Assembly (NCBI GenBank): GCA_012730045.1
Contig: JAAYBR010000025.1
Span: 1-51,377 of the forward strand
Origin: Candidatus Hydrogenedentota bacterium
GTDB taxonomy: Bacteria > Hydrogenedentota > Hydrogenedentia > Hydrogenedentales > CAITNO01
Length of the DNA: 51,377 nt
Reading direction: 5' to 3'
In this document: positions 9,926-14,275 of the stretch, piece by piece
Numbering within the stretch: position 1 is the first letter of the stretch
How the letters are laid out: each line of letters begins with the position of its first letter
Program-made: the position numbers and the translations under genes
Notes under the pieces: generated by a model
Told to the model about the DNA's origin: nothing
The model's database searches: none
Seen by the model: the letters and a program-made list of their open reading frames with translations, nothing else

Positions 9926-11179
9926 ATGGACATGGACCGAAGAACCTTTATCGCGGGCACCGCCGCCGCCGCCGCGGGCACCCTCGCCCGCCGCGCGCGC
10001 GCCCAAAGCCCCAACGGCCGCCTGGGTGTCGGCGTTATCGGCTGCGGCGGGCGCTCGGAAACCCATATCGCCACCCTCCTCGAAATGGAGAAAACCGACA
10101 AGACCGTGGAGATCGTCGCCCTCTGCGACGTCTACCGGCCGCGTCTGGAGAAGAAGGCCGCGATGGTCGGCCGGCCGGTCCGCCTCTACCGGGACTACCG
10201 GGAGCTGCTCGCGGACCCCGCCGTGGACCTGGTCACCATCGCCACGCCGGACCACCACCACGGGGAGCAGGCCATCGCCGCCCTGGAGGCGGGAAAGCAC
10301 GTCTACTGCGAGAAGCCCCTCACCCACTGGCGGCAGTGGGACCTGACCCGCCGTTTCTTCGAGGCCGCGGCGAAGTCCCCCGCCGCCTTCCAGCTCGGCG
10401 CGCAGCGCATGTCCGACTCCGCCTTCCGCCAGATGAAACAGCTCGTGAAGGACGGGATCATCGGGAAGCCGATCCACGCGGAGTGCGGCATCTTCCGCAC
10501 CGGAGACTTCGGCGAACGCGGCATGCCCATGGACGACCCGGAGGCCAAGCCCGGCCCCGACCTCGACTGGGACGCCTTCCTCGGCGACGCCCCCAAGCGG
10601 CCCTTCGACGCGAGCCGCTTCTTCCGCTGGCGCATGTACGAGGACTATGCGGGCGGCCCCGTCACGGACCTCTACCCCCATGTGCTCACGCAGGTCATAG
10701 ACATCCTCGGCGTCACCCACCCGTCCCACGCCGTCGCCACGGGCGGCAAATACCGCTACCAGGAGCGCGAGGTGCCCGACACCTTTAACATGCTGGTCGA
10801 GTATCCCGGGAACATTTCCATCGCGGTGCTGGGCACCCAGGGCAGCAACTACCAGGGCACCGGCGGCCGCGACGACATCCGCATCCCCGTCATCCGCGGC
10901 TGGGACGGCGCCCTGACCATCCAGGAAAACGACATCGTGTTCATCCCCGACACCCCGGGGGGCGGGCGGAAGGAGGAGCGGTTCCCCATCGAGCGCGGGT
11001 ACAACGTGCTCTACCTCATGCGCAACCTCGTCGAATGCGCCCTGACCGGCGCGCGCACCCTCGACAGCGGCCCCGCCCTCGCCTACCACACCCAGACGGC
11101 TCTCCTCATGGGCATGACCGCCTACCGCGAGAGGCGGACGGCCTTTTTCGACCCGGAGAAGCAGGAAATCACCACATGA
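9926..11179 (+). CDS. Tat-exported Gfo/Idh/MocA-family oxidoreductase
   Basis: 417 residues, RBS AGGAGG five nucleotides before the ATG. A twin-arginine signal is evident (R5-R6 in DRRTFIAG, a hydrophobic Ala stretch, ARA-Q at about 24-27). The Rossmann motif GVGVIGCGGRSETHI (34-48) and the family catalytic-region signature CEKPL (128-132) mark a NAD(P)-dependent sugar or inositol dehydrogenase fold. Export by Tat implies cofactor binding before secretion, a pattern frequent in planctomycete-like bacteria. Substrate unknown. It sits between mscS and a propeller glycosidase and overlaps the latter's start by ATGA, so the two may act on the same sugar. Confidence 0.9.
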   Translation: MDMDRRTFIAGTAAAAAGTLARRARAQSPNGRLGVGVIGCGGRSETHIATLLEMEKTDKTVEIVALCDVYRPRLEKKAAMVGRPVRLYRDYRELLADPAVDLVTIATPDHHHGEQAIAALEAGKHVYCEKPLTHWRQWDLTRRFFEAAAKSPAAFQLGAQRMSDSAFRQMKQLVKDGIIGKPIHAECGIFRTGDFGERGMPMDDPEAKPGPDLDWDAFLGDAPKRPFDASRFFRWRMYEDYAGGPVTDLYPHVLTQVIDILGVTHPSHAVATGGKYRYQEREVPDTFNMLVEYPGNISIAVLGTQGSNYQGTGGRDDIRIPVIRGWDGALTIQENDIVFIPDTPGGGRKEERFPIERGYNVLYLMRNLVECALTGARTLDSGPALAYHTQTALLMGMTAYRERRTAFFDPEKQEITT

Positions 11180-12213
11180 CCAAACCCGCCGCCCTCCTGC
11201 TGCTCGCTGCGACGCTCCTGCTTGGCCCGGTGACCGCCTTCGGCGCGGCGCTGGAAGACGTCGCCGCCGCGTCCGCCGGGACGTACGCGGGCATTTTCCA
11301 GAAGTTCGCCGCCTATGACACCGTGGTGGAGCCCGACAAGAACGCCCCGGAATGGTGGGCCGGCGCGCCGTCCGTGGTCCACGACCCCGACACGGGCTTC
11401 TGGATGGCCTGCCGCATGCGGGCCGGCGAGGGGCCTCGGGGCCTGCGCGGCTATGAGGTGCGCATCCTCCGCAGCGATGACGGGATCCATTTCACCCCCG
11501 TCCTGAACATCCGCCGCGAGGACGTCCCCATCCCCGGATTCGAGCGGCCCGCCCTCGTCCGCGACCCCCAAACCGGCAAATTCCGCCTCTACGGCTGCGG
11601 CCCCTGGAAGGACGGCCCCTGGTCCATTATCAAATGGGATGACGCCGGCCGGCCCGACCAGATCGTGGTCACCTCCGCCAAACCGGTCATCGTCCCGCCG
11701 GAGAAGGAATACGAGCGCGACATCGTGCCGAAGGGGTTCAAAGACCCGGTCATCCTCTTCGCGGAGGGGGCCTGGCACTGCTACGTCATCGGCTACATCC
11801 GGGAAAATGAGCGGATTTTCCACTTCAGCAGCCCCGACGGCGAGAACTGGAAGCCTGTGGGCGATTTCCGCAGCCCCGTAATGGACCTCACGGGCTGGCA
11901 CGACTTCTTTGTGCGGCCCGCCAGCGTCGTGCCCGTCGGCGTGGGCTATCTCTTTGTCTACGAGGGGTCAAAGACAAGCTGGCATGACCCTGTCTACAAC
12001 ATCGCCACCGGCTTGGGGTTCACCTTCGACCTGCACCAAATCACCGACCTGACCCCCGACACCCCCCTCGCCCTCAGCACCACCCCCAGCGGGGATTTCG
12101 CCACCCTGCGCTACTCCCACTGGCTCAACCGCGACAACGAGTTATGGGTCTACGCCGAGGCGGCCCGCCCCAACGAAAGCCACGAAATCCGCCTGTTTCG
12201 ACTGAAAAAGTAG
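11176..12213 (+). CDS. Secreted five-bladed-propeller protein, glycosidase-like (GH43/GH32/GH130 type)
   Basis: 345 residues from the ATG that overlaps the previous stop (ATGA). A signal peptide (MTKPAALLLLAATLLLG.. to about residue 24) precedes a single propeller domain. It has repeated blade-like motifs with aromatic/Asp content: SVVHDPDTGFWMACR, RPALVRDPQTGKFRLYG, KDPVILFAEGAWHCYVIG and RPASVVPVGVGYLFVYEG. The pattern of Asp-containing blade starts resembles GH43/GH32-superfamily glycosidases and GH130 phosphorylases, but I cannot assign catalytic residues, so 'glycosidase' is provisional. Last gene of the 6538-12213 operon. Confidence 0.75.
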   Translation: MTKPAALLLLAATLLLGPVTAFGAALEDVAAASAGTYAGIFQKFAAYDTVVEPDKNAPEWWAGAPSVVHDPDTGFWMACRMRAGEGPRGLRGYEVRILRSDDGIHFTPVLNIRREDVPIPGFERPALVRDPQTGKFRLYGCGPWKDGPWSIIKWDDAGRPDQIVVTSAKPVIVPPEKEYERDIVPKGFKDPVILFAEGAWHCYVIGYIRENERIFHFSSPDGENWKPVGDFRSPVMDLTGWHDFFVRPASVVPVGVGYLFVYEGSKTSWHDPVYNIATGLGFTFDLHQITDLTPDTPLALSTTPSGDFATLRYSHWLNRDNELWVYAEAARPNESHEIRLFRLKK

Positions 12214-12385: not shown

Positions 12386-12580
12386 GGGAGCCGCGTAAAG
12401 TGGCGAGGTGTATGCGTTTTGCCCGCCTTCGGGACGGTGGCGACACTGTTTTTCCGGGAGGCGGTGGAGTCTAAAGCCTTTTTTGGGAACATGTTGGCTC
12501 CGGACCCCGCTCCGGGGCAGGCACGGTCGGTGGTTGCAGAGAAAACGGCGCAATGGGGCGCACTAGGCGAGGGTAAACGC

Positions 12581-14275
12581 ATGGCGAAACGCCCGGAAGC
12601 GGTCAAGGCCAAGAAAACAGCAGTTTCCGCGAAAAAGCCGAAAGTGGTCCAGGGAAAGCCGAAAACGCCGCCGAAGGCGGTGACGCCAAAAGGAAAGGCC
12701 AAACCAGCCCCCGCTGCGGCGAAAAAATCGCCGGTAAAGCCCGCCCGGGCCGCCGCCCCGGCGCCGAAAAAGGCCGTGCCGGCCAAAAAAGGGGCCGTGA
12801 CCGCAAAAACGGCCAAGAAAACTCCGCCCGTGGCACAGAAAAAGAAGAGTATCGTTGCGGCTCCCAAGAAGGCCGCCCTCCCGGCCAAGAAGCAGAAGGC
12901 GGTCGCTGTGAAGGCCAAGACCGCCCCCCCGGCCAAGAAGCAGAAGGCGGTCGCCGTGAAGGCCAAGGCCGCCCCCCCGGCCAAGAAGCAGAAGGCGGTC
13001 GCCGTGAAGGCCAAGGCCGCCCTCCCGGCCAAGAAACAGAAGGCGGTCGCCGTGAAGGCCAAGGCCGCCCTCCCGGCCAAGAAAAAGCCGGCTGCGGTTC
13101 CCAAGAAGCCCGTCGTCCAGACGAAAGTAGTGGCCAAGATTCCCGCGAAACAGGCGGCAAAAGCCCCGATAAGACCCGAAAAAGCCCCCAAAGTCGCTGA
13201 AAAACCGGTGCCAAAGCCCGCGAAGCCCGTTTCCCCTCCCCCGAAACCGGTGACCGCCCCCGTTAAGGAAAAGGCGCCGGCCCCCGCACGAAAAGAGAAA
13301 ATGGTTCCTCCCATCCCGGTCGCTTTCCTGGTGGAACTGGCGCAGACGATCAAGGAGGCCGTGGAGGAGTCGGCGCGCGCGGTACGGGGCCGCGAGGTGG
13401 TCAGCCACGCCGAAAGCGGGGATGTGACCTTCCAGTTGGACAAGATCGCCGAAAAGGCGCTGCTGAACTTCCTGAAGCGGGCCGGACAGCCCGTCGCCTA
13501 CTATTCCGAGGATGCCGGGTACTCCACCTTCACCTCCGAAAAGCCCAAGCACCTGCTGGTGGTGGACCCCATAGACGGGAGCCGGGCGGCCAAGAGCGGC
13601 TTTGAGGGCTGCGTGGTGGCCGTGGCGAGCACGCGGGTCATCGAGCGGCCCACCATGGCCGACGTGGACAGTGCCGTCGTGCTGGAGCTGCTGGGGGACC
13701 GCTGCTTCCAGGCGGAGCGCGGCAAGGGGGTGAAAATCACCGCCGGAAGCCAGCCCCGCCGTCCGAAACTCTCGGTCAACACGGAACTGCGGACCATGAT
13801 CTGGTCCATGACCGTGCCGGGGCGGCCCGCCGAGCTGGTCTTCCCCACCGTGGCGCGCCTGATAGACCATTCCAGTCTGGAGGGGGGCTTTTTCGCCTGC
13901 AACAGCACGGCCTACAGCCTGACGCGCCTGCTGACCAACCAGTTGGACGCCTGCGTGGACATCGCCAACCGGTACTACCGCGACATTCCGGAGAAGGTCC
14001 AGCGGCTTTTCGAGAACGCCGGGCAGGGACGGGTGATCGGCATTGCGCCCTACGACCTGGCCGCCGCCCTGCTGGTGGCCCAGGAGGCCGGCTGCGTGGT
14101 CACCGACGCCTATGGAAAGAACTTCAACGACGTCCTGCTGCTGGACAGCACGGCGTCGAACCATCTATCCCTGGTGGCGGCGGCCAGCAAGGGGCTCCAC
14201 GCCAAGCTCATGGAGTTCCTGGTCCGGCGCATCGAGATGGTGGAAAGCCGGTTCCAGGCCCTCCCCTCCGCCTGA
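12581..14275 (+). CDS. IMPase/FBPase-family phosphatase with a histone H1-like N-terminal tail
   Basis: 564 residues from ATG 12581 (GAGGG nearby; a TTG at 12419 is open in frame but less likely). Residues 1 to about 235 are nearly only Lys, Ala, Pro and Val, like a histone H1/AlgP tail, and include four 16-residue units PAKKQKAVAVKAKAAP/L (101-164) plus a partial fifth. Residues about 245-545 are an inositol-monophosphatase-superfamily domain. Its metal-site motif is DPIDGS (329-334), with E310 in YYSEDAG upstream and YDLAAALLVAQEAG near the end. It should be a Mg-dependent sugar- or nucleotide-phosphate phosphatase. The basic tail suggests binding to DNA, RNA or another polyanion. The typical DPxDGT ends in Ser here, which the family tolerates. 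Confidence 0.85.
   Translation: MAKRPEAVKAKKTAVSAKKPKVVQGKPKTPPKAVTPKGKAKPAPAAAKKSPVKPARAAAPAPKKAVPAKKGAVTAKTAKKTPPVAQKKKSIVAAPKKAALPAKKQKAVAVKAKTAPPAKKQKAVAVKAKAAPPAKKQKAVAVKAKAALPAKKQKAVAVKAKAALPAKKKPAAVPKKPVVQTKVVAKIPAKQAAKAPIRPEKAPKVAEKPVPKPAKPVSPPPKPVTAPVKEKAPAPARKEKMVPPIPVAFLVELAQTIKEAVEESARAVRGREVVSHAESGDVTFQLDKIAEKALLNFLKRAGQPVAYYSEDAGYSTFTSEKPKHLLVVDPIDGSRAAKSGFEGCVVAVASTRVIERPTMADVDSAVVLELLGDRCFQAERGKGVKITAGSQPRRPKLSVNTELRTMIWSMTVPGRPAELVFPTVARLIDHSSLEGGFFACNSTAYSLTRLLTNQLDACVDIANRYYRDIPEKVQRLFENAGQGRVIGIAPYDLAAALLVAQEAGCVVTDAYGKNFNDVLLLDSTASNHLSLVAAASKGLHAKLMEFLVRRIEMVESRFQALPSA
12881..13072 (+). repeat. Four tandem 48-bp in-frame units within the H1-like tail
   Basis: Four nearly identical 48-bp units start at 12881, 12929, 12977 and 13025, each beginning CCGGCCAAGAAGCAGAAGGC or one base different. 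A truncated fifth starts at 13073. Each encodes 16 residues, so slippage changes length without a frameshift. Confidence 0.9.

Follow-up and report, generated by a model that had tools for sequence, protein, structure and literature searches.

A phosphatase gene present across the phylum Hydrogenedentota encodes a basic, lysine-rich N-terminal tail followed in frame by an inositol-monophosphatase (IMPase) domain, and the composition of this tail is maintained while its sequence is not. The gene was examined in a window of 51,377 nucleotides (i.e. the whole stretch of DNA analysed; contig JAAYBR010000025.1) from a Candidatus Hydrogenedentota bacterium.

Structure of the gene

A first-pass annotation had proposed a fusion of a basic tail to a complete IMPase-type domain with metal motifs. 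Both elements were borne out, as tail and domain lie within one forward-strand reading frame of 564 aa, the C-terminal domain exceeds the PF00459 cut-off and the metal ligands are invariant. The features of the gene are as follows.

12565-12573, forward strand: Shine-Dalgarno-like AGGCGAGGG, read from the sequence, 7 nt ahead of the ATG at 12581
12581-14275, forward strand: tailed IMPase-family phosphatase, complete ORF, 564 aa, with orthologs in 38/38 high-quality genomes of the phylum
12581-13300, forward strand: Lys/Ala/Pro-rich N-terminal tail of 240 aa, net charge +66, predicted from its composition to be disordered
12869-13083, forward strand: tandem repeat within the tail, 48-bp (16-codon) unit, 4.5 copies, 96% matches
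13325-14215, forward strand: inositol-monophosphatase domain (PF00459), residues 249-545, 61.3 bits, E 1.3e-16, cut-off 27
13439-13441, forward strand: Asp equivalent to SuhB D44 (alignment with E. coli SuhB) in the active-site region, nearly invariant among 53 homologs
13505-13513, forward strand: metal motif S-E-D, with an invariant Glu equivalent to SuhB E67
13565-13582, forward strand: metal motif D-P-I-D-G-S, with an Asp pair equivalent to SuhB D84 and D87, both invariant
14048-14056, forward strand: metal motif P-Y-D, with Tyr for the usual Trp and an invariant Asp equivalent to SuhB D212

Residues 1-240 of the window protein consist of 28% K, 27% A, 17% P and 12% V, and exhibited no match to any Pfam family. 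This tail is the longest seen because the tandem repeat at 12869-13083 has expanded. GAGG-like sequences were observed ahead of the tail start in many homologs. The gene product is predicted to be one cytoplasmic protein with no apparent signal peptide; if so, an acidic glycan, which had been suggested as one target of the tail, is unlikely.

The enzyme domain

Alignment with SuhB placed residues E67, D84, D87 and D212 opposite E70, D89, D92 and D252 of the domain, and these four positions are kept in all aligned members. Membership of PF00459 was examined using the profile score and key residues: the score lies above the cut-off, and the Glu, the Asp pair of DPxDG[ST] and the Asp of the second motif are all present. 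As the metal ligands are invariant, the domain should be catalytically competent, i.e. an active metal-dependent phosphatase of the IMPase superfamily. The nearest solved chains by sequence were PH1897, SuhB proteins and archaeal FBPase/IMPase (FBPase, fructose-bisphosphatase). An AlphaFold2 model generated from 19 sequences had a mean pLDDT of 47.

The tailed proteins and their tailless relatives form a subfamily that differs from classical IMPases in having DP-x-DG-[ST]-R, an NS pair in place of the GS of SuhB, and Y-D for W-D; the D-P-I-D-G-S motif is followed by a subfamily-specific R-A-A. Superfamily and metal ligands are shared with SuhB (i.e. the E. coli IMPase and Nus factor), but SuhB is tailless, distant in sequence and different in its substrate pocket. 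They are likewise shared with the archaeal-type class IV FBPase/IMPase (NF009321; PDB 1vdw, 1lbv and 1dk4), from which the phosphatase differs in having DPIDG[ST]-R-A for DPxDG[ST]-x-N-F, PYD for WD or TD, and CNS[ST] where SuhB has GSAA, and in carrying the tail.

NF009321, the FBPase/IMPase equivalog, was the best-scoring NCBIfam model, with 88-90 bits against a cut-off of 264. The model for the NADP phosphatase/NAD kinase fusion (NF010678) gave 58-61 bits against a cut-off of 493, and no NAD kinase domain was found. The suggestion that the enzyme is a PAP phosphatase is disfavoured: scores against the CysQ/HAL2 PAP phosphatase equivalogs were about 13-16 bits (cut-offs 229 and 267), while another gene of the window's genome, which reached 251 bits with the HAL2 model, is clearly the relative of HAL2/CysQ type. 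As the scores fell below all equivalog cut-offs, the substrate is not readable from the families.

Distribution and conservation of the tail

The phosphatase gene was detected in all 38 high-quality Hydrogenedentota genomes (i.e. completeness of 90% or more, contamination of 5% or less) and in 61 of 68 genomes overall. It is single-copy, except for two genomes with two fragment-like matches each. Homologs obtained by protein search were labelled Candidatus Hydrogenedentota, the exceptions being one 'uncultured bacterium' and one Nitrospiraceae bin. The latter locus (L017; JAACEL010000568.1) encodes a typical tailed homolog of the Hydrogenedentota type with 67% identity, and its Nitrospiraceae label is probably a binning error.

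The two parts of the protein are retained together throughout the phylum, as the fusion proposal had anticipated, with a basic, lysine-rich, in-frame extension ahead of the domain in 58 of 58 non-redundant homologs. These tails range from 48 to 240 aa (median 113), with a median net charge of +31 and a median Lys content of 24%; the lengths are approximate, as the start-codon rule favours lysine-rich starts, whilst the open in-frame extension itself was seen directly. By charge-hydropathy, all 58 tails lie on the disordered side of the boundary, and 51 are devoid of F, W, Y and C. Alignment of the window tail with the tails of its nearest relatives was close to that of shuffled tails (z about 1) despite domains that are 74-78% identical, indicating that composition is kept and sequence is not.

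Lysine-rich tails are not a general habit of the window's genome as far as it was sampled. In ~375 kb, a K/A/P stretch of this kind was observed only once more, in a small HC2-like protein deliberately included in the sample; L106 and L107, which come from other genomes, were left out of account. Three further PF00459 genes in this genome, one of them HAL2-like, are of ordinary length and have no tail. The HC2-like protein, which is stand-alone and histone H1-like, is encoded on contig C56 (L102:2632-2905, reverse strand; MADVKKAAAKKPAAKK...) and scored 52 bits against HC2 (PF07382; cut-off 40).

Origin of the tail

Nine relatives with 34-48% identity were obtained from outside the phylum in a profile search of 386 genomes. 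All nine are tailless, with reading frames that begin at or near the domain, and their gene neighbours differ from those in Hydrogenedentota. Maximum-likelihood analysis placed the tailed proteins in one group (98/99 support) adjoining the tailless ones; the fork joining the nearest tailless family was weak (84/57). A single tailed clade among tailless relatives indicates that the tail was gained once, and the simplest reading of these sequences would place this event at the root of the Hydrogenedentota.

Comparison with known basic tails

The description of the tail as histone H1-like held for composition only. No match of the tail to the histone H1 (linker histone), HC1 or HC2 models was obtained at E values up to 10, and a linker histone or HC2 domain was thereby ruled out. 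Judged by its sequence, the tail is thus H1-like in composition and a member of no histone family. With the HC2-type histone H1-like proteins (PF07382) it shares a polycationic, lysine- and alanine-rich character.

AlgP and PhaF of Pseudomonas likewise carry a long, disordered Lys/Ala/Pro segment on a different functional part. The K/P/A tails of these proteins bind DNA and position polyphosphate or PHA granules, and AlgP has a net charge of +55 over the whole protein (PMC9239181). Their tails, however, sit at the C-terminus and consist of KPAA repeats, whereas the window tail is N-terminal with one KPAA in 240 residues. The remainder of AlgP and PhaF is helical and not an enzyme, and the resemblance is not put forward as homology. 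No IMPase extended by a lysine-rich segment was found in the open-licence literature.

Gene neighbourhood and substrate

Ten genomes, all belonging to a single Hydrogenedentota family, have zwf on the same strand 13-260 bp downstream of the phosphatase gene; in seven of these, pgl comes next after zwf. Cyanobacteria have an fbp-zwf-opcA operon (PMC5400509). The distribution of zwf is patchy (49/68 Hydrogenedentota genomes); the window's genome had no zwf match, and zwf was absent from nine of the 38 high-quality genomes, all with the phosphatase. At ~20 loci (including L069, L090, L091, L094 and L099; Pfam-confirmed in L090), the phosphatase gene is preceded on its own strand by a DUF6807-type gene whose end lies no more than ~180 bp away. 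The window has neither zwf nor a DUF6807-type gene; there the neighbouring genes encode a Gfo/Idh/MocA oxidoreductase and two glycosyltransferases. The predicted 392-aa protein encoded at positions 11035-12213 (forward strand) matched no Pfam family at E 1e-4. No anti-phage defence match was obtained using PADLOC.

The 68 Hydrogenedentota genomes yielded no fructose-bisphosphatase of class I, II, III or V, save for one GlpX fragment that sits in a contaminated genome. Phosphofructokinase genes were universal in these genomes and often multiple. One copy in the window's genome is PPi-type, and gluconeogenesis can therefore run without an FBPase. The zwf-pgl neighbours in ten genomes and the missing FBPases of these four classes hint at a role in hexose-phosphate metabolism, which agrees with the earlier suggestion of a sugar-phosphatase; this reading is circumstantial because the window's genome has no zwf and does have a PPi-type phosphofructokinase. 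A sugar (hexose-type) phosphate is accordingly put forward as a tentative substrate, with a little less than an even chance. Strict assignment as an FBPase is tempting and is weakened by the same two features of the window's genome.

Alternative explanations

That tail and enzyme are two genes, or that the start was mis-called and the enzyme begins at ATG 13301, is hardly credible. This ATG does lie in frame at the junction in the window, but no good ribosome-binding site precedes it, and among the homologs a GAGG-type site is often found ahead of the tail start. The tail is in frame and stop-free in all 58 homologs, and 49 lack an ATG within 20 codons of the junction; as only nine of 58 have one, a conserved second gene start is excluded. 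The first-pass annotation had named one outcome that would speak against a fusion, a separate gene beginning at the junction in every homolog; this was looked for and does not occur, and the 58 homologs refute a wrong start as a general explanation. Neutrality of the tail raises a different question. A low-complexity, slippage-prone extension that is tolerated as harmless would be consistent with lengths of 48 to 240 aa, with sequences that are not alignable and with growth of the window tail by a 48-bp tandem repeat. Drift, however, should lose some tails, whereas positive net charge and disordered composition were observed in 58 of 58 homologs, and comparable stretches are rare elsewhere in the window's genome; near-neutrality is thus very improbable.

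Two further alternatives grant the tail a function. The IMPase fold may have been recruited to transcription or RNA, as for SuhB, in which case the tail would serve as an arm for binding RNA and catalysis would come second. By sequence, SuhB chains rank among the nearest solved structures, and SuhB is annotated as a Nus factor, but the fold relation is distant (33-47 bits), the conserved neighbours are metabolic and not transcriptional, and full conservation of the active site across the family argues for catalysis, leaving this role improbable. In the other alternative, the tail binds polyphosphate and not nucleic acid, such that the phosphatase would reside on polyphosphate granules and link phosphate storage with sugar-phosphate turnover. 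Association of AlgP, which carries a K/P/A tail, with polyphosphate granules (PMC9239181), binding of polyphosphate by lysine-rich non-PASK segments of E. coli YihI and Rnr (PMC12345225) and the PPi-type phosphofructokinase of the window's genome all favour this proposal. Against it, the PASK motif (i.e. a 20-residue window with at least 75% D/E/S/K) is absent from the window tail and present in only four of 58 homolog tails, and the DNA-binding part of AlgP is the K/P/A tail itself. Residence on polyphosphate granules is considered unlikely.

Proposed role and implications

The preferred reading is of a divergent sugar-phosphatase of the IMPase superfamily that gained its tail once and is tethered electrostatically to an intracellular polyanion; taken as a whole, this is judged to lie just on the probable side. 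At the base of the phylum, a disordered polycationic extension would have been added to the N-terminus of the phosphatase, and this tail may act as an electrostatic tether that keeps the active enzyme on an intracellular polyanion, where it would act on a sugar (hexose-type) phosphate. Tethering of this kind is the firmest part of the proposal: binding to a polyanion is likely because of the tail composition, and the analogy with the tails of AlgP and PhaF points the same way. Given tethering, nucleic acid (nucleoid DNA or RNA) is a reasonably probable target, with polyphosphate as the second choice.

The phosphatase is a candidate for the missing fructose-bisphosphatase of the Hydrogenedentota. 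It is doubtful that a central sugar-phosphate enzyme of the whole phylum replaces the missing FBPases whilst being permanently bound to the nucleoid or to polyphosphate through an H1-like tail; if true, a metabolic step would be coupled to chromosome or storage-polymer organisation. Lysine-rich H1-like tails of bacteria are known mainly from structural or granule proteins. Here, such a tail occurs on a conserved and apparently active enzyme, is universal in the phylum and is kept in composition without being kept in sequence. The tailless relatives, at 34-48% identity, provide a clean natural comparison for the role of a polycationic disordered tail on an enzyme.
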